The translations under genes and the position numbers were made by a program. The notes below the pieces were generated by a model. The model saw nothing but the letters and a program-made list of their open reading frames with translations, did not search any database and was not told the origin of the DNA. This document shows, one piece after another, positions 1,829 to 38,522 of a DNA stretch of 45,148 nucleotides. The first letter of the stretch is position 1. Each line of letters begins with the position of its first letter. The stretch comes from a virus, in IMG/VR virus record IMGVR_UViG_3300046665_000768, positions 1 to 45,148 of that record; one strand, 5' to 3'.

Positions 1829-1930
1829 TGAATTCCCTGCTTTTCACTCTGCGCGGGCTGATTGCCATTTCCCGCAATTTCCCGCAAAATGCCCCACTCT
1901 CTCATCCTTAGTGCTACAGATTTGCTACAT
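1780..1930. other. Probable attL: host/prophage junction in the 5' end of dusA
   Basis: The junction lies between the conserved APMMDWTDRH codons of dusA and the integrase start. The heptamer TGCTACA occurs three times in the same orientation (1796-1802, 1912-1918, 1923-1929), the first inside dusA and the other two around the integrase start. The 10-mer ATTTCCCGCA is tandemly repeated at 1867-1876 and 1877-1886. These are candidate core/arm-type integrase sites. The exact crossover cannot be fixed because attR is outside the window. Confidence 0.5.
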
Positions 1931-2969
1931 GGCTTCTATTCTCAAGATCGGCGACACATGGCGGGCTCAGATCCGCCGGAAGGGCCACAAGTCGATGTCG
2001 GAAACATTCCCTACCAAGGCGCAGGCCGTTGCGTGGTCGCGAGGGGTCGAGGCGGAGATGGATGCCAGGCGCTTCAAGGATGTGCGCGGGCTGGCGAATC
2101 TTACCCTAAAAGTGCTGATCGGCCGATACCGCGAGGAAATCGGCGCCGAACACCCATTCGGGAAAAACAAGACCGCAGTACTTAATATGTGGGAACGCGA
2201 GCACGGCGACAAGACGGTAGACGAGATCACCGATGACTACTTGACCAAGTTCGTGCGCGACCGCCGGAAAGGCGGGGCCGGCGGCGTCACGATCAGCATT
2301 GACCTCACATACCTGGGCGGCGTATTCAAGACGGCGAAGGAGCTCTGGAAACTGCCAGTCAGCCTCGAGCCGATCGAGGCAGCACGCGCGAACATGGCTC
2401 ATCTGAAAATCTCGACCAGGTCGGAGGAGCGCCGACGCCGTCCGACCGACAAGGAGATCTCGGACTTGTGCGATTACCTGGACAAACACTCCACCCTGCC
2501 GATGCGCGACCTCATCCACTTCGCCATCGAGTCGGCCATGCGCATCGAGGAGATCACCATGCTGCGCTGGGTCGACCTGAACGAAGCGGACCGAACCATC
2601 ATGATCCGGGACCGCAAGCACCCGCGCCAGAAGAAGGGGAACGACCAGGAAGTGCCGCTGCTCGGCAAGACGTTCGGGATCGTCCAGAGGCAGCCCAGGC
2701 CGGGCACGTTGACGCCCGAGTGCCGGATATTCCCCGTCAAGGCCGAGACTGTCAGCACGATCTTCCCGCGCGCCAAGAAGGCACTCGGCATTGAGGATTT
2801 GCACTTCCACGACCTGCGCCACGAGGGCGTATCCCGGCTGTTTGAGCAAGGCTACCAGATCCAGGAAGTCGCGCTGGTCTCAGGGCACCGCGACTGGAAG
2901 ATGCTGGCTAGGTATACGCAGATCAAGGCAAAGGATCTGCATCGGATGCCGAAAATTGACGAGCAATAA
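1929..2969 (+). CDS. int: Phage tyrosine integrase, dusA-associated type
   Basis: Site-specific recombinase that integrates and excises the prophage. The 346-residue protein has an N-terminal arm/core-binding region and a C-terminal catalytic domain. Active-site residues can be followed: Arg205 in AMRIEEI, a lysine in the KHPRQKKG segment, H294-x-x-R297 in HDLRHEG, His320 in SGHRDW and the nucleophile Tyr329 in LARYTQ. ATG 1929 is preferred because the protein then starts MASILKIGDTWRAQIRRKG, the usual beginning in this family; a GTG at 1911 is possible. No strong ribosome-binding site is visible, so expression may be low. The gene points away from dusA, as is typical when the attachment site lies just upstream of int. 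No excisionase gene is recognisable beside it. Confidence 0.93.
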   Translation: MASILKIGDTWRAQIRRKGHKSMSETFPTKAQAVAWSRGVEAEMDARRFKDVRGLANLTLKVLIGRYREEIGAEHPFGKNKTAVLNMWEREHGDKTVDEITDDYLTKFVRDRRKGGAGGVTISIDLTYLGGVFKTAKELWKLPVSLEPIEAARANMAHLKISTRSEERRRRPTDKEISDLCDYLDKHSTLPMRDLIHFAIESAMRIEEITMLRWVDLNEADRTIMIRDRKHPRQKKGNDQEVPLLGKTFGIVQRQPRPGTLTPECRIFPVKAETVSTIFPRAKKALGIEDLHFHDLRHEGVSRLFEQGYQIQEVALVSGHRDWKMLARYTQIKAKDLHRMPKIDEQ

Positions 2970-21784: not shown

Positions 21785-23866
21785 TTATGCGCCGACGCCC
21801 TGGTACAAGCCGCGGTAGTCGACCGCCTTCGCGGCGAAGTCCAGGCGGCACTTCCAGGTGACGCCGTCGACTTCGAAGCCATTCTGGCTTTCGATGACGG
21901 GGCCTTCCGCGCCGTCCAGGTAGCAGTACTCGACGGTGTCGATCTGGCTGTTGTTGCTGGCCAGGTACCAGGCGGCGGAGCTCACGGCATCCAGGATCGG
22001 CTCGACGATCGGCTCCAGCGCGGTACGGCCGCCGGCGCGGAATTCGTTGACGTCGGTCTGCTTGGCCGGCACGTAGTTCGCGCTGGTCAGCTGGTAGGCA
22101 TCCTGCTCCAGGGCGACCGGCACGATCAGGAAGTTCGGCGCCAGATTGAGCTCTTCCTTGGCCAGGCCCTTCTGCAGACGCATCGCGGTGCGGCCGGCTT
22201 TCAGGGCGCTCAGCTGCAGCGCGGAGCCTGCGCCGGTGCCGAGGTTGCCGTGGCTGGCGTGGAACAGTGCGGTGCCGTCGCCCATCGCCGGGTTCGAGGT
22301 CAGCTGGCTGTACACCAGGCGGTTTTCCAGGCGGCTCGAGCTGGAGCCGAAGGCGCTGACCAGGCGCTCGAACGCGCGCAGGTCGTCGTTGATGATGGCC
22401 TGGCGGGTCAGCGCGACCATGCGGCCGTAGGTGACCAGACCGTAGGTGATGCCGGCATCGATCATGGTGCCGTATTTGAACTCGCCGGCTTCGTTGGTCT
22501 GCAGCAGGTCCGGTGCGCCCGACAGCTGGACGATGCTGATGTTCTTGAAGTCCGGGGCGTTCGGCGCGCGGCGGGCCCACTGGGTATAGGTGCCCTGGTT
22601 CTCCTGATAGGCCGCGCGCATGCGCTTGTTGGCGACGTTGGCGAAGATGGCGGCGAAGTCGCTCGTGCTGTGGGCGCCCGAGCGGTAGTGCAACATTTCG
22701 GTGGCCAGCTGCATGCGCGACATGCCACGCGTTTCGATGCCGCGCACACCCAGGAATTCGCGGCCAATCTCGATCAGGCTCAGGCCACGGTATTGGCGCC
22801 CGTTGTCGGTCAGCGCGGCGCGCGCGTCGACGCGGTTCATCATCGCTTCTTCGATGCCGGCCATGCGGGTCTGGTGTTCGTCGCCGACGGTCTGGATGCG
22901 CACGTTGCGATGGCCGCCGGTACCGGCGTCGGCGCGGGCCAGCTCTTCCAGCACGGCGGCGCGTGCCTGATCGACCGAGTTGCCGCTGCGGATCAGGCCG
23001 GCGGCCAGCTGGCCGACGCCGTGGCGGGTGCACATTTCGGTGATCTCGGCGGCGCGGGTGGCGGCCGCCGTCTCGGCAGCGCGTACGGCGGCGTCATCGC
23101 CGGCCGGCGGGGTCGCGGCGGCGGTGGGCGCAGTTGCCGGAGCCGGAGTTGCCGGGGCGGCGGAGCGGGTCGGATCGGCGGGCGCGGTGGTAGGTGCGCC
23201 CGGCTGGGTAACAGGGTTCGGCATATTGAGGTCCTCGTGGTTTGGGCTGGGCGCCCGGGTGGTGAATTCGCATGGATGGCCATCGGCCGGCTGGCTACGC
23301 GTGCTCGCGTCGGCGTCGGCCGGGACGGTGACAAAACTGATTTCGTTGGGCTGCCACGCGACGGCGCGGTACAGCGGCATGTTCACGCCGTCGGTGCGGT
23401 CGATGGCACGGGTGATCTCGTACTTGCTGATGCTGTAACCGAAGCTGATCGCGCGGATGATGCCGGCGCGGATATCGGCGACGATGCCAGCCATTTCCGG
23501 GCGCGTGGAGAGTTTCAGCGTCGCCCTGCCCTCGCCGCTCTCGATGCTGCCGCGAATAGCGATGCCGAGGATGGCGTTCACGCCGCCGTAGGTGCGGTGA
23601 CCGTCCAGCACTTGCACGGTTCCGGCGTCGAAGCGCGACATGTCCACCGCCTCCGGCGTGACTTCGAGCTCCTCCTCGTACATGGTCTCGGTCCACCAGT
23701 CGTAACGGCGCACGCGCGCGCCTGTGGTCCAGACCACGTCGATGGTGTTGTCAGCTTCGTTGAAAGTGGCCGGGACCAGCTCCGCGCCGCGGCTGAGCGG
23801 CGGCATGTTCCGAGGATCGGTCGCGGAGCGGGTGGCGTTCTGCGGGGTGGTGGTCGGTGTGGTCAT
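21785..23866 (-). CDS. Prohead protease - major capsid protein fusion
   Basis: A single 693-residue frame joins an HK97-type maturation protease to a capsid protein. Residues 1-205 contain FDAGTVQVLDGHRTYGG (His90 as probable catalytic base) and IIRAISFGYSISKYE (Ser141 as probable nucleophile). Residues 215-270 are a Pro/Ala/Thr linker. A helical scaffold-like segment (AAVRAAETAAATRAAEI ... ARAAVLEELARA) and the HK97-fold capsid domain follow, ending in DYRGLYQGVGA. Met215 (ATG 23224) is preceded by GAGGA seven bases upstream, so a separate 479-residue capsid/scaffold product may also be made by internal initiation. The first ATG (23866) has no clear ribosome-binding site and sits at the edge of late element B. 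Confidence 0.88.
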   Translation of the reverse strand: MTTPTTTPQNATRSATDPRNMPPLSRGAELVPATFNEADNTIDVVWTTGARVRRYDWWTETMYEEELEVTPEAVDMSRFDAGTVQVLDGHRTYGGVNAILGIAIRGSIESGEGRATLKLSTRPEMAGIVADIRAGIIRAISFGYSISKYEITRAIDRTDGVNMPLYRAVAWQPNEISFVTVPADADASTRSQPADGHPCEFTTRAPSPNHEDLNMPNPVTQPGAPTTAPADPTRSAAPATPAPATAPTAAATPPAGDDAAVRAAETAAATRAAEITEMCTRHGVGQLAAGLIRSGNSVDQARAAVLEELARADAGTGGHRNVRIQTVGDEHQTRMAGIEEAMMNRVDARAALTDNGRQYRGLSLIEIGREFLGVRGIETRGMSRMQLATEMLHYRSGAHSTSDFAAIFANVANKRMRAAYQENQGTYTQWARRAPNAPDFKNISIVQLSGAPDLLQTNEAGEFKYGTMIDAGITYGLVTYGRMVALTRQAIINDDLRAFERLVSAFGSSSSRLENRLVYSQLTSNPAMGDGTALFHASHGNLGTGAGSALQLSALKAGRTAMRLQKGLAKEELNLAPNFLIVPVALEQDAYQLTSANYVPAKQTDVNEFRAGGRTALEPIVEPILDAVSSAAWYLASNNSQIDTVEYCYLDGAEGPVIESQNGFEVDGVTWKCRLDFAAKAVDYRGLYQGVGA

Positions 23867-29189: not shown

Positions 29190-31117
29190 GGGTCGGAGCG
29201 TGGTTGGGTAGGTGATGCGGGCGCCGGTGAGGCGGCGGTCTGGGTATCTGCGGTCTCCGCATCTGCGGCGGCTGGCGGTTCTTGGAACAGGTCTCGGGTA
29301 TCGGGGTCGACGAATTCACGCACCTGTTTCCACTGGGCGGCAGATTTCTTGTGGAGACCGAGGTAATGGGCGCAAGCCAGGGCATAGACCATCAGGTCGC
29401 CCGCCTCGTTACGGTCGTTCTTTTTCTTTTCCCAGACGCGAACCTTCCGGCCGCGCTTGTACACGGTGATGCAGTACTCGGCCGTCAACTGCTCGTAGTA
29501 CTCGATCGTCAGGCCGGACGGGAAGTGGATTGCGCCCGGGCCGCTGGCCAGGTGGTAGCGCGCCGCCAGGTAGTCCTTGGCCGTGTCCGTACCGATCAGC
29601 CACAGCTTGGCGCCGTGCGGCACGTGCTTGCCTTGCCAGTTCACATCCACGAGCGACGGCTTGGCGGCCAGCACCGGCTTGCCGTAGCGGGACTCGCCCT
29701 TGATGGCATAGACGTGCCGGTGCTGGCGGGTGCGCGTGAAGTTGTAGACGTCATGCGTGTTCGCGCCACCGGAGTCGATGAAGGTGGCCGAGATCGGCAG
29801 CTGGCGACCGCCGGCATGCGGGTAGTGCGCCAGCAGCACCTCGTTATCGAGCCGGTCCCACACATCCTGCTCCGATGGCGATCCGGGCAGCACCTGGTAG
29901 TCGACGATGAACACTTCCATGCCCTCGCCCCACGCCGTCACCTTAGCCTCGAGGCGGTCCGGCTGGGTGTCGACGGTGCAGACGAGGATCAGGCCGCCCT
30001 TCGGCACGGTGCCGAGTTTGTAGCTCTCGGCGCGCGCCTGCAGCTCGCTGGCCTTGGTCTGCTCTTTCTTGCGCTCCCAGCACCGGGCCAGCCTGGTGTT
30101 GTAGAACGTGATCATCAATTCCTCGCTGCCCTCATCGAGCTTGGCGCGCGCGGCCCGGTACTCGCGCAGCAGCGCGGCCCAGGTCAGCCAGCCGTACGGC
30201 GCGAACATCGCGTTGATGGTGAAGCTGACCGTCTCGCCGTCGCCAGCCACGCCCTCCGACCAGAGCCCTTTCGCAAACATGCGGTTCTTATCGGACTCGT
30301 ACATGAATTCTCCGCACGCGATGCACGGGTAGGCGGCTTGGCCGGCATCGTCCAGCTGCAGGCGCTCGAACACCAGAGGCTGCTCGTGATCGCAGTGCAC
30401 ACACTCGGCCAGCGCCTCCTGGCGCGTCCCCTGCAGGAACAGGTTCTCGATGATGGACTGACCGGTGACGGTCGGCGAGCTGGGGAAGTAGCTCTTGCGG
30501 TTGCGCTCGAACGAAGTCTGGCGGGCCTTCGCCAGGGCGACCGGATCGCCCTCGCCGTTGACGTTGTTCTCGGCGCGGTCGACTTCGTCGAACAGCACCC
30601 GGCGGGCCGGGATCTCGGACAGGTTGGCCGCAGCACCCGCGGTGACAATGTGCAGCGCGCCACCGATGTATTCCTTGGTGTCGAGCGTGTTCATCTTGTC
30701 GCGCGCTCGCGGGGCGGCAACACGCTCGCGCACCTCCGGCACGGCGTCGATCGTCTTGCCCACGCGCGCGCTGGTACGCTTGGCCAGCTTGCCGGTCGGG
30801 AGGATCCATAGGAAGTTCGCCGGCGACTGGTGGATGGTAGAGCAAAACCAGTTCAGGCCCACCTGGGTCTTGAGCATCTGCGAGGCGCCCATCAGAGCAA
30901 CCGTCTTGCACCAGTGCGAGTCGGACAGGGCCTGCATCACGGCGCGCGCGTGCGGCGTCCGACTGGTGCGGTACTTGCCCGATTCGTTCGCGCCAGATTC
31001 TTTCGGGATGATCATGTAGCGGTCCGACCAGGCGTCGACCGTCATGTTCGGATCCGGCATCAGGCCGCGGGAGAACGCAGGATGCACCACATCGACAGAT
31101 GGCGTCAGATTGGTCAT
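29123..31117 (-). CDS. terL: Terminase large subunit, lambda gpA family
   Basis: A 664-residue packaging motor and nuclease. The ATPase has a Walker-A-like GASQMLKT (77-84) and Walker B VLFDEVD (174-180). Two CxxC pairs (Cys239/242 and Cys265/268) form the zinc element seen in gpA homologues. The nuclease half begins near ILVCTVDTQPDRLE and includes GDLMVYALACAHYLG at the end of the conserved region. The last ~60 residues are a Pro/Ala/Thr tail overlapping the activator gene. It overlaps terS by ATGA. The gpA family cuts at cos sites, so this phage probably packages by cos. Confidence 0.96.
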   Translation of the reverse strand: MTNLTPSVDVVHPAFSRGLMPDPNMTVDAWSDRYMIIPKESGANESGKYRTSRTPHARAVMQALSDSHWCKTVALMGASQMLKTQVGLNWFCSTIHQSPANFLWILPTGKLAKRTSARVGKTIDAVPEVRERVAAPRARDKMNTLDTKEYIGGALHIVTAGAAANLSEIPARRVLFDEVDRAENNVNGEGDPVALAKARQTSFERNRKSYFPSSPTVTGQSIIENLFLQGTRQEALAECVHCDHEQPLVFERLQLDDAGQAAYPCIACGEFMYESDKNRMFAKGLWSEGVAGDGETVSFTINAMFAPYGWLTWAALLREYRAARAKLDEGSEELMITFYNTRLARCWERKKEQTKASELQARAESYKLGTVPKGGLILVCTVDTQPDRLEAKVTAWGEGMEVFIVDYQVLPGSPSEQDVWDRLDNEVLLAHYPHAGGRQLPISATFIDSGGANTHDVYNFTRTRQHRHVYAIKGESRYGKPVLAAKPSLVDVNWQGKHVPHGAKLWLIGTDTAKDYLAARYHLASGPGAIHFPSGLTIEYYEQLTAEYCITVYKRGRKVRVWEKKKNDRNEAGDLMVYALACAHYLGLHKKSAAQWKQVREFVDPDTRDLFQEPPAAADAETADTQTAASPAPASPTQPRSDPWPTPKPQTSSAPPRRPVGRQW

Positions 31118-31680
31118 TCGCCCAGGTCTCCCAGGTCGGAACCCAGCTTCTCGCCGAAGGCGTGCGCCATGCTCTCGAGCAGGAGGCGATGCTCCCGTTC
31201 GATCACGGCTTCGCAGTCGTCCGCGCTGGTCAGCGGCGCCACGTCGGCGGCGATGCGGCGGCCGCAGTTCATCACGCCGTCGCGCAGCGCCCGGGCGATC
31301 TCGAACACGGCCGAGTCGACGTCGCTCTTGAGCAGGAACTTGCCGGCCATCTCTGCCAGCTGCAGCTCGGCCTTTGCTGCCTCCGCTGCCTCCCGCCGCG
31401 CACGACTGCTGTCGTACCCGGGCACCTTCACTGATGCCTCCGAACCTCCAGTCCCTCCCGCACCCGCCGCGGTCCCGGGCTGCGCCCCGGGTGCCAGAGG
31501 GTCAGGCCGATTGCCGTTCGCGCGCTGGCGGGTGTTCTTGCGGTACAGGTGCGTCGCGTAGTCGGGATCGACCTTACCCTCCGTCACCGGGATCCCGCAG
31601 CGGTCGACCGCATCGTAGGCGGACTGGCGAGCAATCCCCACCAGCTTGGCCCACTCGGCAATGGTTGTCAGGTTCGGCAT
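31114..31680 (-). CDS. terS: Terminase small subunit (Nu1-like)
   Basis: A 188-residue DNA-recognition subunit. The N-terminus MPNLTTIAEWAKLVGIARQSAYDAVDRCGIP is a winged-helix/helix-turn-helix like lambda Nu1. A Gly/Ala/Pro linker (about 55-85) and a helical oligomerisation/terL-binding part (SRARREAAEAAKAELQLAEMAGKFL) follow. It overlaps terL by ATGA. The 135 bp upstream hold direct repeats that could be its binding sites. Confidence 0.88.
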   Translation of the reverse strand: MPNLTTIAEWAKLVGIARQSAYDAVDRCGIPVTEGKVDPDYATHLYRKNTRQRANGNRPDPLAPGAQPGTAAGAGGTGGSEASVKVPGYDSSRARREAAEAAKAELQLAEMAGKFLLKSDVDSAVFEIARALRDGVMNCGRRIAADVAPLTSADDCEAVIEREHRLLLESMAHAFGEKLGSDLGDLGE

Positions 31681-31815
31681 GTGCTTTTTGTACTTGTCAG
31701 GTTATCTGTCAGGAAATTGTTTGGGTATCCGCTAGTGCGATGACGGGGCCTGAATTACCCTTGCCACACCCTTCTCCGGAAGAACCTAACCCCGGGGAGG
31801 GGGTGGCCGGGCCGG
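31681..31815. other. Non-coding region upstream of terS; candidate cos site
   Basis: In gpA-type phages cos normally lies just before terS. This 135-bp gap holds direct repeats TGTCAGG at 31695-31701 and 31707-31713 (12-bp period, like terminase-binding R sites). A GC-rich tract with the palindrome CCCCGGGG lies near 31791-31798. The nick positions cannot be deduced. The gap could also hold a promoter. Confidence 0.38.
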
Positions 31816-32337
31816 TCAGGCCGCCTCCTCTGCCCGGGCCAGCCGGTGCAGGAACGCCGCGATCGACACGCCGGCCGCCTTCGGGATCGCGGCCACGGTC
31901 TCGCCGTCGCGCTGGATCTCGAGGATGCCGTCCGACCAGAGCGCGCAACGGTAGGCGCTGGGCGCGGACGCCTCGACCGAAGCCTGAGCGCCGCTGTCCT
32001 GGCTGGTCCGGAGCTGCGCCGGCACGAACGTTGGCACGATGATCGGCCCCGGGGCCAAGGGCGGAATTGCCTCGCATGCCGCCAGGACGTCAGCCGACGA
32101 GGCAATGGTGCTCGGCCGGCTGAGCCCAGAAAGCTTGTGCCCCTTCCTCAGGCGGTACAGCATGCACGCGACGCCAGCAGGCGAGGTGCCGGCACTGGCG
32201 ACCACGTCGCCCACGGCGATGAGCCCAGCCAGTGCGGTCTGCACGTCCACCAGGTCAACGTCCAGGCGGTCGGCCAGCTGCACGGCGCGAGACTGTGGGT
32301 GGAGAGCGAGTTGCTCGAGGATCTTCTGGTCATTCAT
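31816..32337 (-). CDS. Hypothetical protein with N-terminal winged-helix
   Basis: A 173-residue protein starting MNDQKILEQLALHPQSRAVQLADRLDVDLVDVQTALAGLIAVGDVV, a convincing winged-helix DNA-binding pattern. A Pro/Ser/Ala linker and a second helical segment with a probable helix-turn-helix (IQRDGETVAAIPKAAGVSIAAFLHRLARAEEAA) follow. It may regulate the late operon or act in replication. It is the last gene before the cos/terS gap. Its ATG lies inside the stop region of a 15-codon micro-ORF carried by a 35-bp repeat. Confidence 0.58.
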   Translation of the reverse strand: MNDQKILEQLALHPQSRAVQLADRLDVDLVDVQTALAGLIAVGDVVASAGTSPAGVACMLYRLRKGHKLSGLSRPSTIASSADVLAACEAIPPLAPGPIIVPTFVPAQLRTSQDSGAQASVEASAPSAYRCALWSDGILEIQRDGETVAAIPKAAGVSIAAFLHRLARAEEAA

Positions 32338-32352
32338 TCTTGGCTCCAGGTG

Positions 32353-32387
32353 CGCCACCCTCATCGCCGGGCGGCATGGCGTTGTTG
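32353..32387. repeat. 35-bp direct repeat, copy 1
   Basis: Matches 32843-32877 with one mismatch, exactly 490 bp apart. On the minus strand it encodes the beginning of a micro-ORF, MPPGDEGG ..., that runs 32377-32330 (15 codons plus stop) and terminates over the start of the next gene. It may be a duplicated leader or the scar of a gene insertion. Confidence 0.85.
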
Positions 32388-32806: not shown

Positions 32807-32842
32807 ACGGTCTTGCCTTTCAGGTCGATACTGCTTCATGGT

Positions 32843-32877
32843 CGCCGCCCTCATCGCCGGGCGGCATGGCGTTGTTG
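32843..32877. repeat. 35-bp direct repeat, copy 2
   Basis: Second copy of the repeat at 32353-32387. Its minus-strand micro-ORF (32867-32820, MPPGDEGG...) stops 13 bp before the ATG of the 127-residue gene, mirroring the arrangement at the first copy. Confidence 0.85.
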
Positions 32878-32881
32878 ATGG

Positions 32882-33637
32882 TCAGCGCAACCTGGCCGTC
32901 GCCACCGCCTTCGCCCACTCGGTCTCGAAGTGGCGCGGGAACTGGGCGTTGGCCGTGGCCTCGCCGACCTCGAAGAAGCGCAGGCGCGGCCGGTAGTTCA
33001 GGGACTGGACGAAGATGAACACCGGGCGCACCGCCGTGCCGTGGGCGAACTTGCGCTTCAGGTAGATGCCCGGCTCCAGGCCGCGGCGCTTGGCCGGCAG
33101 CGCGAAGTAGGTCACGCCCTGGCGCGCAATGGTGCGGTTCGATCGGGCGCTGCCGGTGGCGCGCGACTCGAAGCCGGCCCCGCGCTGCAGCTTCAGCTGC
33201 GACAGGATCTGGACGATCTGGCTGCGCTTGACGTTGCCGTTGCCGTCCAGCTGGGCGCCGACAGCCGGCACGGCGAACCAGCCGGCCGGCATCAGGCCGG
33301 AGCGCTGCAGCAGGCGCTCCATGCCCTTCTGCCCACGGCCGCCGCCGTAGATCTGCGGCAGCAGGAAGCGGTCCGCCGGCGTGCCCTTGCCGAATGGGGC
33401 ATCCTTGACCCAAACGCGGGCCTCCAGCTTCTGCTTCGTGGCCGGCTTGATGAACGTGCCGTTCAGGGCGTACGCGGTCGGGCGATCGAAGACGCTCTGC
33501 ATCTCGCTCTTGATGGCGGCCTGGGCGTCCTTGATCGTGCGAGTCAGCGACACAGCAGCGACGAACGGTGCCTGGCGGCCCAGCTCGCTCAGCCGCTGGG
33601 CGACCTGGGGGAAGTTGGTCTGGATGTTGATTCTCAT
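32882..33637 (-). CDS. Putative minor tail protein Z-like / virion morphogenesis protein
   Basis: A 251-residue basic protein: MRINIQTNFPQVAQRLSELGRQAPFVAAVSLTRTIKDAQ, then KPATKQKLEARVWVKDAPFGKG and a central GLMPAGWFAVPAVG. The N-terminal helix followed by a lysine-rich strand region resembles gpZ-type tail-completion proteins. The position, before the terminase genes and away from the tail cluster, is unusual for such a protein. It is preceded by AAAGGGG at good spacing. The functional assignment is tentative. Confidence 0.45.
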   Translation of the reverse strand: MRINIQTNFPQVAQRLSELGRQAPFVAAVSLTRTIKDAQAAIKSEMQSVFDRPTAYALNGTFIKPATKQKLEARVWVKDAPFGKGTPADRFLLPQIYGGGRGQKGMERLLQRSGLMPAGWFAVPAVGAQLDGNGNVKRSQIVQILSQLKLQRGAGFESRATGSARSNRTIARQGVTYFALPAKRRGLEPGIYLKRKFAHGTAVRPVFIFVQSLNYRPRLRFFEVGEATANAQFPRHFETEWAKAVATARLR

Positions 33638-33639
33638 GA

Positions 33640-33930
33640 TCAGGCCCCTTTACGTGGCATATCAGGGCTGACACTGAACCCTGTTACGTTGAAACCCGCA
33701 TGGATACTGGCCTTGAACAGGGTTAACAGGGTTAACATTGTTCTCTTCATGCGCACGGGAGATTTATTAATGCTGTGCTGCTGTTGGATCGACTGCGAGA
33801 AAACAGGCGTGTGCGCACGCGCGACCCCTGTTAACCCTGTTAACCCTGTAGAACCCGCATGGATGCTGGCTTTCCGGCTATCAGCCTTCGGCGCAAGTGC
33901 GTTAAACCCTGTTACGTGATGGGCGCGCAT
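33640..33930 (-). CDS. Short ORF spanning the iteron region
   Basis: A 96-codon frame with an excellent start context: AAGGAG, the last codons of the primase gene, lies six bases before the ATG. The product (MRAHHVTGFNALAPKADSRK ...) contains duplicated KASIHAG and repeated LTG triplets simply because the DNA is made of 9-bp iterons. Translation is likely, but the sequence is probably shaped by its role as DNA. Comparable repetitive ORFs follow primase genes in other prophages. No function as protein is proposed. Confidence 0.42.
   Translation of the reverse strand: MRAHHVTGFNALAPKADSRKASIHAGSTGLTGLTGVARAHTPVFSQSIQQQHSINKSPVRMKRTMLTLLTLFKASIHAGFNVTGFSVSPDMPRKGA
33677..33917. repeat. Iteron array, candidate origin of replication
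   Basis: Seven copies of the 9-mer AACCCTGTT are arranged nearly symmetrically. One lies at 33677 (extended AACCCTGTTACGT). Two tandem inverted copies occupy 33716-33733 and three tandem direct copies 33824-33850 (outer ones one base off). One extended copy lies at 33905-33917. A separate 22-bp repeat with two mismatches flanks the core (33693-33714 and 33852-33873). An AT-rich stretch (GATTTATTAATG, 33761-33772) lies between the two arms. It is located right after the primase-helicase gene. Confidence 0.65.
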
Positions 33931-33933
33931 GAT

Positions 33934-36672
33934 CTACTCCTTAATCTCGGCCAGGTCGCGGAAGCGCTTGCACAGTTCGCTGAGCGATGGTTCCGCCTCT
34001 TTCTCGTCGGTCCACTCCGCGTGGAAGACGGTCAGGAGCTTCTTCTGGCCGGTGACGCCCAGGGCGACCCACTGGCGGTCCTTCCGGACGCGCTGGGCAA
34101 TCAGTTCGGCGAACTTCGTCATGGTCACCGACCGGTACCCGTACTTGTTGCAGTAGCGGGCGTACAGCGTGTACAGGTCGGTGGACAGACACGAGATGTA
34201 CGGTGCGGCCAGCTCGCCCGCCTTCCACGCCAGGTAGAAGATTTCCCAGTCCGGCCGGCCGAAGTTGATCATGCGTTCCTTCGACGACGTCATGATCGGC
34301 TTGGTGTGAGGCGTGAAGCCGTCGAGCGGGTACTCGAGCAGGTAGGCATAGAACGCCTCGCTGAGCCCATTGCCAAGTGCGGCCTGGATCTCCTTCAGCA
34401 GTGAGGGGTCGAGGGGATTGCGCGCCTCGGCCACCAGGAAGCGCCGATCGTCCGGCTCGATCGGGACCGCCTGGAACTCGTTCGAGAGCATCACCACGTT
34501 CATGTGGTTGGCCTCGGTGCGGTCGTCCTTGAATTTCTGGGTCACCATCTGGTCCCGGCCGGTGATCATGTGCTTGATCAGGCCGAAGTGGCTGTACTTG
34601 TCCTGCCTGGACAGGATCTCCTCGAACAAGACGAACAGCTTCTGCGATCGCCAGTGCGTGTACTGCGCGTCCAGCTGATGCTGCCCGCCGGTGGCACCGT
34701 GCGCGCCGTAGATCGGTTTGACGATCCCTTCGAAGAACAAGCTCTTGCCAGTACCCTGCCTCTCGCCGAAGAACAGCATCGCGGTTTGCATCTTGGCGCC
34801 CGGGTGCTGCAGCGGGTAGGCCAGCCAGCACAGGGCCCAGTGGAAGATCTCGTCGCAGTTCGCCTCGCTGCTGCACAGGCTATACAGCAGACCCAGGGCC
34901 AGCTGCGCCTTGGCCTCGTCCTTCTTCGGCGAGAGCGGGAAGCCCTCGAACATGTTGATGTGCGTATCCAGGTCGACCTTCTGGGTCGGGTCGAACACCA
35001 GCTTGTCCAGGTCGACCTCGCGGCGCATCGGGTGCTCGAGCCAGCGGGTTGCCAGATCGCTGCCGCGCGCCAGGGCCATTGCGTCGTAGGCGATGACGGT
35101 GCGCTTCTCCGCATCCCAGACCGTCTTGGTCCCGTAGAGCAGCGTGTACCGGCTCAGCATGTTGACGATGTTGTCGACCCCCGCCTCCCCTGCTTCGACT
35201 GCGACGCCGCGGCGGGTGGCCGGCAGGTTGCGCGGGCTGATCGAGCGCCGGTCGGTGTGCTCCAGCCAGGCGCGCGCCACATCCTTGCCCACCGTGTCCT
35301 GGAACCCGGGGCGCTTCATGCGCAGCTTGTTCAGCGAATCCCAGACGTCGGTCGTGCCCTGGACCAGGGCGCAGTGCGCGAGCGCCCATTCGAGCGTGAA
35401 GGCGCTGCGCGTTTCCGGCGCTGCTGCGCTTTCGGAGGGGACCGGGGAACTGGCCTCGTCGACCGGAGGAACATCGTCGAAGTGCGCCGGGATCTCGTCG
35501 CCGCTGGCCGGGGCCGATTCGGCGACGAGGGCGCGGGAGATCGCTGCCTGCACCTGGTCGCGGACCACGTCGAGCGATTCAGCCAGGTACAGGTCGTTGT
35601 AGTCGGACCACTTGTCGTCCTGGCGGTCGGAGAACGCCGGCCAGGCCACGGAGGCGTTGCCCACAGCCTTTGCCGCCGCGCGGGCGCGCGCGATGCCGGC
35701 GTTCTCGAACTTGCGCAGCGGCAGCAGGCGACGGCCGGCGCGCGCATCCGCCTCGATATAGTCGGTGCCTGCGGCGTCCTGGCGCCAGGTCGCGCGAAGC
35801 TGCACGATGTCGCCGTTGCGCCCCACGACCTCGTGGTCGGCTCCGTCGATAACCGGATCCCACTGAGCGTCGAAGTGCTTCTCGATCGCTTCGCGCAGCC
35901 GCGCGACCAGGCGCATGTCGTCGTCCGCGAAGAACAGGATGTGCGCTTTCGGGAAGTCATTGCGCAGCTGCTGCGCGACCGCCAGCAGGTTGCCGGCGTT
36001 GAAGGCGACCGCCACCGGGAAGTCAAAGCCGGTGGCCATGCGGATCGTCTCGCCGGTGGCGTAGCCCTCGGCCACGCCGATCAGCGGCGTGCTGTCGTTG
36101 ATGGCGCCAAGCAGGCATGCGCCGCCAATCATATCCATGGCCTTGGTGAAGCGCTTCGCGCCGTCGGGCGTGATCTTCTGCAGGCCGGTCATCGTCCCGC
36201 CGGTGCGGCTGTACTTGCGCACCGGGATCAGCAGTTCGCCCTTGTCGTTGACACGGGTGCACTCGCCGTCGACGCGCTTGCGCTCCAGGTAGCCGTGCTG
36301 AGCGGTCTCCGTCGCGACCCTCCACTGCTCGCGTGCGCGGTTGGCGGCCAGTTCGGCCTGGCGGCGCTTTTCTTCCTCGGCAGCGCGCTGGACCTCTGCC
36401 TGCTTGCGCTCGGCCTCGGCACGTTCCTCTGGGGAGATGCCGCTCCAGTCGACCGAGACCGGGATCGCGTTGTTGTCGTCCCCGTGCCAGACGCCGAAGC
36501 TGCCGGTGACGACGGCCTGACCGGTGCGCAGCGTGATCTCGCGCAGGACGTACCACGCCTTCTTTTCACGGCCGAAGCGGTGGATCTTACCGTCGAGCAG
36601 CGGGTGGCCCGCCGGGAGGTCCGGGAGGCCGCCGGCGCGCATCTGGACGGTGACCTGGTCAAGCGTTGCCAT
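33934..36672 (-). CDS. Primase-helicase with Toprim and DUF5906-type helicase domains
   Basis: A 912-residue replication protein. The N-terminal half has a zinc-less primase-like region and a Toprim domain: GVAEGYATGETIRMATG (about residue 200), VAFNAGNLLAVAQQLR and HILFFADDD. The C-terminal half is an SF3/D5-like helicase with Walker A GERQGTGKS, FVLFEEILS as Walker B and NVVMLSNEFQAVPIEPDDRRF as sensor region. Such proteins initiate phage or satellite replication at iteron origins; one such array starts directly downstream. A charged coiled coil (residues 80-115) links the N-terminal parts. The start ATG 36672 follows GAAAGG and overlaps the small upstream gene. Confidence 0.92.
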   Translation of the reverse strand: MATLDQVTVQMRAGGLPDLPAGHPLLDGKIHRFGREKKAWYVLREITLRTGQAVVTGSFGVWHGDDNNAIPVSVDWSGISPEERAEAERKQAEVQRAAEEEKRRQAELAANRAREQWRVATETAQHGYLERKRVDGECTRVNDKGELLIPVRKYSRTGGTMTGLQKITPDGAKRFTKAMDMIGGACLLGAINDSTPLIGVAEGYATGETIRMATGFDFPVAVAFNAGNLLAVAQQLRNDFPKAHILFFADDDMRLVARLREAIEKHFDAQWDPVIDGADHEVVGRNGDIVQLRATWRQDAAGTDYIEADARAGRRLLPLRKFENAGIARARAAAKAVGNASVAWPAFSDRQDDKWSDYNDLYLAESLDVVRDQVQAAISRALVAESAPASGDEIPAHFDDVPPVDEASSPVPSESAAAPETRSAFTLEWALAHCALVQGTTDVWDSLNKLRMKRPGFQDTVGKDVARAWLEHTDRRSISPRNLPATRRGVAVEAGEAGVDNIVNMLSRYTLLYGTKTVWDAEKRTVIAYDAMALARGSDLATRWLEHPMRREVDLDKLVFDPTQKVDLDTHINMFEGFPLSPKKDEAKAQLALGLLYSLCSSEANCDEIFHWALCWLAYPLQHPGAKMQTAMLFFGERQGTGKSLFFEGIVKPIYGAHGATGGQHQLDAQYTHWRSQKLFVLFEEILSRQDKYSHFGLIKHMITGRDQMVTQKFKDDRTEANHMNVVMLSNEFQAVPIEPDDRRFLVAEARNPLDPSLLKEIQAALGNGLSEAFYAYLLEYPLDGFTPHTKPIMTSSKERMINFGRPDWEIFYLAWKAGELAAPYISCLSTDLYTLYARYCNKYGYRSVTMTKFAELIAQRVRKDRQWVALGVTGQKKLLTVFHAEWTDEKEAEPSLSELCKRFRDLAEIKE

Positions 36673-36832
36673 GGCTGCGCCTTTCTACACCGAGCGCAGC
36701 CAGCTGCAGCGTAAGGCGCGCGAGGATGCGCGCCTTTTCTTCGGGCGTGAACTGCTTTTCCGGTGGTTCGGGCGGCAGCGACACCGCAGCGGCGCTCTGG
36801 CCCCGCGCCTGGTCGTTCATATCAGCGGTCAT
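36659..36832 (-). CDS. Small protein upstream of the primase
   Basis: A 57-residue frame (or 53 from ATG 36820, which follows the upstream TGA by one base). It has a Pro-rich beginning and a well-formed helical part, FTPEEKARILARLTLQLAALGVE. It overlaps both the CII-like gene and the primase start, so the three genes form a tight translational unit. GC-rich third positions match true phage genes. Function unknown; a replication accessory peptide is possible. Confidence 0.6.
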   Translation of the reverse strand: MTADMNDQARGQSAAAVSLPPEPPEKQFTPEEKARILARLTLQLAALGVERRSHGNA

Positions 36833-37298
36833 TCGAGTGGGACTGGTGGGCGCCCGCTGCCGGACGGCAGTAGACCTGGAACATCAGGGACATCAGCTCC
36901 TGCAGGGACTTGTGCATCTGCTGGGCGATGTCTTCCAACTGCACGCGTTCGCGCGCGTCGATCTCGCCGTCCTTCTTGGCGTCGCCATAGGTTTTCGAAA
37001 GATCGCCGAGCTCGCACAGAAGCTCGCGGAACTTGGATTCCAGATCCTCGTCGTGCCGGCATTCAGGGTCCGGCAGGTCGATATACACGCCGCCGCTGGC
37101 ATGGGCCACCGCCTGGGCGAAGTGCTTCGTGCCGGCGTAGGTTTGGATCAGCAGCGCGGTATCGACGCGCATGCCCGAGCCTTTCACCTCGTACACACGA
37201 GCCTCCAGGGCAGACTTGGTCATGCCGAGCGTCGCCGCAGTACCGTTCCAGCCGTGCACCTTGATCATTTCCTGGTAGGCGGTTAAGAGGTGGTCCAT
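36822..37298 (-). CDS. CII/YmfL-type phage regulator (Phage_CP76-like)
   Basis: A 158-residue protein. The N-terminal half MDHLLTAYQEMIKVHGWNGTAATLGMTKSALEARVYEVKG is the helix-turn-helix of phage CII-like/YmfL regulators, with the family stretch VDTALLIQTYAGTKHFAQAVAHASGGVYIDLP after it. The C-terminal half is a charged helix (DARERVQLEDIAQQMHKSLQELM). It lies downstream of cro-like and a terminator and before the replication gene, the same position as lambda cII. AAGGAAACCCT precedes the ATG. It probably helps the lysis-lysogeny decision. Confidence 0.78.
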   Translation of the reverse strand: MDHLLTAYQEMIKVHGWNGTAATLGMTKSALEARVYEVKGSGMRVDTALLIQTYAGTKHFAQAVAHASGGVYIDLPDPECRHDEDLESKFRELLCELGDLSKTYGDAKKDGEIDARERVQLEDIAQQMHKSLQELMSLMFQVYCRPAAGAHQSHSNDR

Positions 37299-37722: not shown

Positions 37723-37750
37723 ACTATACGCGAATGAATAGAAAAGACAA
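37723..37750 (-). promoter_or_regulatory. Promoter of the cro-like gene (lytic, minus arm)
   Basis: -35 TTGTCT (37750-37745), 16-bp spacer and -10 TATAGT (37728-37723), the last base seven bases from the ATG. The spacer and -10 contain operator O1, so repressor binding would exclude polymerase. It is nearly identical to the plus-strand early promoter at 38931-38958. Confidence 0.72.
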
Positions 37751-37798
37751 TACCCGAATGAATAGCGACTTGGAGTTGCCCTATACGTGTGCGTATAG
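37724..37798. promoter_or_regulatory. Immunity operators O1, O2, O3
   Basis: Three 18-bp sites lie in the cro-cI gap: O1 CTATACGCGAATGAATAG (37724-37741), O2 CAATACCCGAATGAATAG (37748-37765) and O3 CTATACGTGTGCGTATAG (37781-37798, perfect palindrome at both ends). O1 and O2 are 24 bp apart. O1 covers the cro-like -10, and O3 covers the cI -10. They are probable targets of both CI-like and Cro-like proteins. Confidence 0.75.
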
Positions 37799-37799
37799 T
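37770..37799 (+). promoter_or_regulatory. Promoter of the cI-like gene
   Basis: TTGGAG (37770-37775), 18-bp spacer and TATAGT (37794-37799). The ATG at 37809 leaves at most a few leader bases, so the message may be leaderless, as for lambda cI from PRM. Operator O3 overlaps it. Confidence 0.5.
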
Positions 37800-37808
37800 C
37801 GGAAAGTT

Positions 37809-38522
37809 ATGACTATCGGAAAACGACTTGATGAAGCGATGCACGCTGCCGGGATCGAATCCCAGAGCGCCTTGTCGCGCGCATCTGGGGTACCTCAGCC
37901 GACAATCAATCGGATCCTGAAAGACGTTGGGACAAAGGGCCCAGAGAGCAAAACGTTGCTTCCCCTGGCCCAGGCCTGCCGGGTAAACTTCCGGTGGCTG
38001 ATGGAGGGACTAGGCCCGATGAAACTCGACCAGTCCGGCGACAATGTAGCTGCAATATTCCCTGGAGCTCGGCCTGTTGTCGCATCCAGTCCAGACGCTC
38101 TGTCGAGCACAAAGATACGTAAGGTTCTCGACATACGGCTCTCTGCCGGCATCAATGGCTTCGGCTTTGAACTTGACCCGCAGGATCACGGTAGCTGGGA
38201 TGTGCCCACAAGGTGGATCGAAAAAAATCGCTTGGTACCGAGTCAACTCTTTGCGATCGAAGTACGAGGCGAAAGCATGGAGCCCAGCCTGTACGAGGGT
38301 GACCTGGTGATCATCGATACTGGTGACACCAAAATGGTTAGCGGCTTGGTTTATGCTATCAACTTTGAAGGCGAAGCGGTCATCAAGCGGCTCGTCCGAG
38401 AAGGTGGACAGTGGTATCTGCATTCGGACAACCCATCCCCGCGTCACCCTCGCCTACTATGCCGCTCCGGCGACTGCAAAATGATTGGCAGAGTTGTTCG
38501 GCGAGAAACAGATCAAATTTAA
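37809..38522 (+). CDS. CI-like repressor with LexA-type (S24) autoprotease
   Basis: A 237-residue lysogeny repressor. Residues 1-40 form the helix-turn-helix (SALSRASGVPQPTINRILKD). A linker (about 70-110) includes a candidate Ala113-Gly114 cleavage site in RLSAGING. The S24 peptidase fold follows, with Ser156 in RGESMEPSLYEGD and Lys193 in EAVIKRLV as the catalytic pair. Self-cleavage stimulated by RecA after DNA damage would induce the prophage. The ATG at 37809 gives MTIGKRLDEAMHAAG; in-frame ATGs upstream overlap the operators and were rejected. A zinc-ribbon membrane gene follows after one base and probably shares its transcript. Confidence 0.93.
   Translation: MTIGKRLDEAMHAAGIESQSALSRASGVPQPTINRILKDVGTKGPESKTLLPLAQACRVNFRWLMEGLGPMKLDQSGDNVAAIFPGARPVVASSPDALSSTKIRKVLDIRLSAGINGFGFELDPQDHGSWDVPTRWIEKNRLVPSQLFAIEVRGESMEPSLYEGDLVIIDTGDTKMVSGLVYAINFEGEAVIKRLVREGGQWYLHSDNPSPRHPRLLCRSGDCKMIGRVVRRETDQI

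Follow-up and report, generated by a model that had tools for sequence, protein, structure and literature searches.

PICI origins of the EcCICFT073 and SaPI type lie immediately 3' of rep and consist of an AT-rich stretch with an iteron set on either side, and plasmids carrying the rep-ori region of EcCICFT073 replicate in E. coli (PMC6092414). In P4, the alpha protein combines Toprim and SF3 parts in a single chain (PMC4234260) and its winged helix binds the repeats (PMC4234260, citing others). The crr region of P4 is located directly 3' of alpha and contains 8-bp type I repeats TGTTCACC, arranged as tandem units 9 bp apart and in inverted groups. pRN1 has its origin no further than 166 bp downstream of the gene for an SF3 replication protein with a C-terminal winged helix; the primase domain of this protein is of the archaeal type, and a stem-loop takes the place of iterons (PMC4234260). 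Origin DNA lying within translated sequence is known for the RepA origins of N15 and PY54 and for the lambda O origin, and the iterons of Francisella phage KIRK are inside a gene. The open-licence literature that we searched on translated or ORF-embedded phage origins contained nothing on the primase-iteron family described here.

The locus under study is part of a virus record of 45,148 bp with a G+C content of 63.1%, which was analysed over its whole length and is called the window. One end of the window contains, at 839-1828, a gene whose product we take from its sequence to be a DusA-like protein, and this is followed by a tyrosine integrase gene (Table 1). The window also has genes for CI-like and CII-like proteins together with a complete complement of head, packaging and tail genes, including portal, terminase, capsid-protease and tape-measure. 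A tRNA scan found none. From sequence alone, the element was inferred to be a complete temperate phage. PICIs are satellites, whereas this element carries its own virion genes; it is therefore not a PICI, and only its origin layout is PICI-like.

The region directly 3' of the primase-helicase gene, before the minor tail or neck type gene of the same strand, contains a cluster of 9-bp iterons with the sequence AACCCTGTT. Five exact copies (33677+, 33716-, 33725-, 33833+ and 33905+) and two copies with one mismatch (33824+, ACCCCTGTT; 33842+, AACCCTGTA) were found within 237 bp. An earlier sequence-only reading had described seven 9-mers in a 1-2(inverted)-3-1 layout; the layout held, but only five of the seven copies are exact. 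Exact matches to AACCCTGTT are expected by chance at a mean of 0.10 per whole window (100 shuffles), a single stray exact copy was seen outside the cluster at 23210, and no second iteron array was found elsewhere in the window. The two inverted arrays give rise to a 21-bp inverted repeat without mismatches (33717-33737 and 33829-33849), the arms of which are 91 bp apart. The 22-bp repeat pair of the same reading was confirmed (91% identity, same orientation) and is placed between the outer iterons and the arrays. Its short AT-rich core was only partly confirmed, as the 90-bp core is mildly AT-rich (47.8% AT) and its best 20-mer has 14/20 AT. The GC skew of the window showed no clear turn at the iteron cluster, gene direction being a confounder.

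Table 1. Coordinates of the iteron cluster, the ORF across it and the genes discussed in the text (window numbering).
Feature	Position	Strand	Remarks
Tyrosine integrase	1911-2969		after DusA-like gene
terS	31114-31680		iteron array about 2 kb away
Next gene, minor tail / neck type	32882-33637	-	phrog_1924, E 3.5e-72; ATG 2 nt past ORF stop
96-codon ORF covering the whole putative origin	33640-33930	-	starts 3 nt after primase stop, ends 2 nt before next ATG
Outer iteron AACCCTGTT, exact	33677-33685	+	
22-bp repeat, copy 1 (AACCCGCATGGATACTGGCCTT)	33693-33714	+	
Two exact head-to-tail iterons	33716-33733	-	inverted relative to other array
Core between inverted arrays, proposed melting region	33734-33823	.	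47.8% AT
Three head-to-tail iterons	33824-33850	+	1 exact, 2 one-mismatch
22-bp repeat, copy 2 (AACCCGCATGGATGCTGGCTTT)	33852-33873	+	91% to copy 1
Outer iteron AACCCTGTT, exact	33905-33913	+	
Primase-helicase, 912 aa, candidate initiator	33934-36672	-	phrog_2249 DNA primase, E 1.5e-144; DUF5906, E 2.6e-17
Shine-Dalgarno AAGGAG before ORF	33937-33942	-	within primase gene end, 6 nt from ATG
C-terminal winged helix, aa 815-886, proposed iteron reader	34015-34230	-	
CII-like protein	36822-37298		
CI-like repressor	37734-38522		

The features that define PICI and SaPI origins, two iteron sets flanking an AT-rich region and a location immediately 3' of the primase/Rep gene, are both present, and P4 crr shares this layout and place. 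The E. coli CFT073 primase locus, which we take to be PICI EcCICFT073, has nine copies of GGTAGATAG 3' of the gene. On anatomical grounds, and by analogy only, the element would work like the PICI, P4 crr and pRN1 origins; as in pRN1, the site is close behind an SF3 gene with a C-terminal winged helix, here a predicted one, and as in P4 the candidate initiator is a single Toprim-SF3 protein. P4 differs in that it needs a second region, its annotated origin being far from alpha, and in having a terminator between alpha and crr. Furthermore, the EcCICFT073 array is closed in every frame and P4 crr has no single frame open across it, unlike in the window, and thus the translated frame marks a variant of this origin type. 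The N15/PY54 RepA and lambda O cases are also different because what is translated in them is the initiator gene itself, whereas the window has a separate ORF with no conserved peptide.

The primase-helicase was predicted by modelling to contain a Toprim primase, an SF3-type helicase and a C-terminal winged helix, and the union of the Toprim and SF3 parts in a single polypeptide agrees with an initiator of the P4 alpha type. Model residues 105-375 matched T7 gp4 primase (1nui, Z 17.1), and helicase residues 569-886 matched the C-terminal region of NrS-1 (6lrb, Z 12.8) and the SaPI5 primase-helicase (7ola, Z 8.5). The AF2 model of aa 745-912 had a mean pLDDT of 83, and its winged helix matched the RFX DNA-binding domain 1dp7 (Foldseek probability 0.98, E 0.049, Z 5.4) and ORC winged helices (Z 5.2-5.7). 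These C-terminal fold matches are weak, with no Foldseek E below 0.001 and all Z below 6.

The covariation of iterons with the parts of this protein was examined over 108 loci. Iteron similarity tracked winged-helix identity when helicase identity was held constant (partial r 0.315; maximum of 500 permutations 0.092), and two pairs of loci with different iterons share most of the helicase core but only 44% (L106/L124, core 84%) or 36% (L101/L103, core 75%) of the winged helix. Helicase identity given the winged helix, however, predicted iterons better over all loci (partial 0.482), and in the stratum of helicase identity 0.70-0.85 residues 560-594 (0.65) exceeded the winged-helix segments (0.30-0.50). 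The covariation is real and not exclusive to the winged helix, which we regard as the probable reader of the iterons, unproven in the absence of binding data. In most lineages one half of the iteron is GGGT (ACCC), and it is the remaining half that varies (CAGGGT, TTGGGT, CTAGGGT, ACGGGT), which suggests that one reader contact is conserved and the other changeable.

When viral contigs were scanned with the primase protein alone, all 20 relatives had the array directly behind the primase stop. The viral set from this search together with a pattern search comprised 36 distinct loci including the window. The pattern search recruits loci through the iteron itself, and 16 of the 36, the window included, did not come from the primase-only search (L023, L025, L026, L029, L037, L045, L048, L050, L052, L056, L057, L058, L064, L069, L075 and the window itself). 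A further set of 84 loci was chosen by the primase and consisted of 79 genome-contig loci (the best 80 of 164 relatives were kept), mostly from Massilia, Duganella, Undibacterium, Pseudomonas and Acinetobacter, and five phage records. A script that was given no target 9-mer searched the 500 bp behind the primase gene and detected repetition of some 9-mer in 84/84 of these loci (4-13 copies per locus; shuffles, 2-5 copies). In a uniform count over 120 loci, including the 16 viral loci not found by primase alone, a 9-mer family of at least six copies was present in 116, and six copies were reached in 2/115 control windows inside the gene and 2/116 control windows 1 kb further downstream. The core was richer in AT than the primase gene in 116/118 loci (median 0.51 vs 0.40).

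The iteron sequence differed with lineage. AACCCTGTT is the iteron among the relatives of the window and ACCCAACAC that of most Pseudomonas loci; CCCTACACA, CCCTAGTCA, GCAGGGTTT and, in Acinetobacter, TGTTACGGG were found in other lineages along with others, and phage iterons include TCAGACAGT (Halomonas phage) and CCGCACATG (Stenotrophomonas phage S1). The order of tandem array, core, inverted array and single sites was retained in most loci. A constant layout with a sequence that varies by lineage is as expected if the sites follow their reader. The gene downstream of the array varies among relatives, as judged by a crude codon-usage score, and therefore the array travels with the primase. 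Among named phages, the array was present in Marinobacter phage PS3, pAN, Presto, LPPA56, Lodos and SC_9, and absent 3' of the more distant primases of KA2-1, Mulvp2, CN1, AXL_3, M29 and Haddon. The array, its conservation with the primase and its divergence between lineages are thus established. The result that would have refuted the sequence-only reading, iterons missing in relatives with the same primase, did not occur in 20/20 viral and 84/84 further loci; its proposal of an iteron origin is supported, replication from the site and binding by the primase remaining inferences. The primase and array were also seen in three contigs filed as Rhodopirellula, Verrucomicrobiaceae and Phycisphaerae MAGs (L098, L111 and L139), which may reflect a wide host range of the module or mis-binned Pseudomonas-type phage contigs.

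Iterons often act in autoregulation or control, and the cluster could be an operator or copy-control site for the primase or another phage protein, with the origin elsewhere. The CII-like protein and the repressor encoded nearby favour this possibility, as does the second iteron set of P4, which is in the annotated origin away from crr. Against it, the array comes after and not before the primase gene, a promoter scan of 33000-34600 found no promoter-like site, PICI origins that work in E. coli (PMC6092414) have a matching layout, the AT-enriched core included, and the window has no second array. We consider this alternative unlikely.

A packaging (cos/pac) site was also considered and is all but ruled out. 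In its favour, the 18-mer AACAGGGTTAACAGGGTT occurs between a cos-like stretch and terS in seven Pseudomonas-phage-like contigs. Against it, terS of the window is about 2 kb away from the array and has a separate cos-like stretch with other repeats, and the array stays with the primase across relatives while the following gene changes. The cos-like stretch of the window, at 31690-31820 before terS, contains CCTGACA repeats (CCTGACAGATAACCTGACAAG) unlike the iterons. In the seven contigs with AACAGGGTTAACAGGGTT (L028, L040, L043, L059, L062, L072 and L073) a third partial copy is present, and the stretch is GC-rich and in a cosB-like place beside a terminase-small-subunit-like gene, unrelated to the primase. 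The occurrence of AACAGGGTTAACAGGGTT there may be a coincidence, or the terminase may read the same word.

The whole cluster is covered by a 96-codon ORF with a Shine-Dalgarno sequence, as the sequence-only reading had noted. Its explanation that the three-codon iteron keeps the frame open needs correction; the 9-bp period maintains the phase of the arrays and is not enough on its own for an open frame. One of the three array frames has TAA in every unit. In the Pseudomonas relatives the ORF starts at an ATGA overlapping the primase stop and has 110-118 codons (46 loci), and an SD-like 4-mer was found in 45/48 loci with ATG at that position. In the annotated phages PG1 (338/330), pAN (329/325), Presto (344/336), Lodos (347/339) and S1 (350/342) the ORF runs 4-8 nt into the next gene; in several relatives the ORF bridges the primase stop to the start of the next gene, and several phages have stop-start overlaps at both ORF ends.

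A sense frame was open across the array in 32/44 Oxalobacteraceae-type loci (4.3 expected; antisense 8), 48/51 Pseudomonas-like loci (5.5 expected; antisense 5), 5/18 distant loci (1.4 expected; antisense 1) and 1/7 GCAGGG-type loci (0.5 expected; antisense 2), where the expectation was obtained by shuffling the DNA between iterons and the group labels were assigned by locus number. When a fixed stretch was compared among the 51 Pseudomonas-like loci, 46 had the ORF frame open, and the other five frames were open in 0, 1, 2, 1 and 1. The ORF is not universal, and therefore translation is unnecessary for an origin of the primase-adjoining iteron kind as such. The frame is closed in the PICI locus, Mcat3 and H4907 despite the same-strand genes that follow. 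The idea that the frame is retained only where same-strand genes follow was accordingly unsupported, Mcat3, H4907 and EcCICFT073 being closed with such genes behind. Since translation is not a feature of every co-directional operon either, its purpose may differ by lineage.

Selection on the frame was assessed from newly arisen in-frame stops, counted by codon and compared with an expectation in which the inferred substitutions were randomly reassigned among variable sites. In the nine closest loci (all loci with primase identity ≥79%) no new in-frame stop was found against 5.1 expected, and in the 51 Pseudomonas-like loci 21 were found against 87.4. The other sense frames were at expectation, with 6 vs 7.5 and 4 vs 7.4 in the nine loci and 102 vs 101.3 and 91 vs 99.1 in the 51. 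These counts are as required of a translated frame, in which in-frame stops should be rarer than expected and other frames should not. The loci with in-frame stops among the 51 were L081, L106, L124, L133 and L138. Sets chosen for the ORF gave 0 stops vs 6.0 expected (12 loci) and, with those five loci left out, 3 vs 79 (46 loci chosen as open).

The peptide behaved differently from the frame. In 12 close relatives the differences by codon position of the ORF were 0.229/0.226/0.228 with a median dN/dS of 0.97, and in 46 Pseudomonas loci 0.376/0.396/0.382 with a dN/dS of 1.03. The last 300 codons of the primase gave 0.111/0.074/0.315 and 0.14 in the 12 loci, and the primase of the 46 Pseudomonas loci 0.189/0.129/0.443 and 0.13. 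The locus sets for dN/dS were selected for having the ORF. At the DNA level, the conserved parts were the iterons together with the 22-bp repeats (0.06-0.13), and the core was not conserved (0.38-0.44). The stop deficit together with a dN/dS near 1 therefore shows that the frame is under selection and the sequence of the peptide is not: the ORF is held open while its peptide evolves neutrally. The earlier alternative of incidental translation or double use of the DNA is sharpened accordingly.

The ORF could instead encode a real small phage protein, with the repeats part of its coding sequence and no origin present. The start, the Shine-Dalgarno sequence and the frame are well preserved, as this would require. 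Purifying selection on amino acids, expected of a conserved small protein, was not detected, given the equal substitution rates at the three codon positions and dN/dS values of about 1; the product had no Pfam or PHROG match, and loci with a broken ORF still have the array. This explanation is thus very improbable. Similarly, the cluster could act as an RNA hairpin, i.e. a terminator, attenuator or RNase III site, for which the MFE of the ORF RNA (-109.8 kcal/mol, z -3.9) and one weak terminator-like match can be cited. Terminator matches were, however, at chance (1 found, 0.9 expected), no Rfam match at gathering thresholds was found in 33400-34200, and the non-hairpin iterons and the tandem units vary by lineage in step with the arms, although pairing alone would not call for this. 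We therefore give the RNA reading very little weight.

Our preferred reading, which we consider likely, is that the cluster is an iteron origin bound by the primase-helicase and translated for translation's sake. The open frame and the neutral peptide are shown; origin activity, binding and the reason for translation are inferred from sequence alone, and no binding, replication or ribosome data stand behind the origin reading. The cluster would be the replication origin of the temperate phage in the window, and the primase-helicase from the adjoining upstream gene would bind the 9-bp iterons, probably through its C-terminal winged helix. The inverted arrays would position two helicase assemblies face to face across the AT-enriched core, which would melt, and primer synthesis would begin there. 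Selection would act on translation through the origin ORF and not on the peptide sequence. The likeliest reason would be the maintenance of ribosomes on the primase-origin-late-gene transcript, which might be left open to Rho or RNase if its inverted arrays were free to pair. Protection from Rho, blocking of inverted-repeat pairing and delivery of the primase in cis all remain possible purposes.

A bolder reading, towards which we are more doubtful than favourable, is that selection acts on the passage of ribosomes through the origin as a function in its own right, the peptide being a by-product. An unbroken translational chain from the primase through the origin ORF to the next gene would then keep polymerase and ribosomes together over the iterons, and fresh primase-helicase made beside its own origin might act in cis, or the origin repeats might be unable to fold in the transcript. 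If true, this would be a gene-shaped stretch selected only for its readability.

Under the preferred reading of an iteron origin, the satellite-type origin layout would be extended to complete temperate phages of several bacterial families, and a simple rule for finding origins would be to look right behind the DUF5906/phrog_2249 primase. The loci would also provide many natural initiator-iteron pairs for studying how winged helices read DNA. The translated frame with its neutral peptide illustrates cleanly how an ORF can be maintained without selection on a protein; it cautions annotators that a conserved frame need not imply a functional peptide, and raises the direct question of why an origin should be translated.

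Two minor observations concern other parts of the window. A 703-aa protein encoded at 21785-23896 matches a fused head protease and major head protein (phrog_4523). A 45-bp GC-rich direct repeat is present at 32343-32387 and 32833-32877 (89% identical, 490 bp apart), and each copy immediately precedes a small minus-strand gene.
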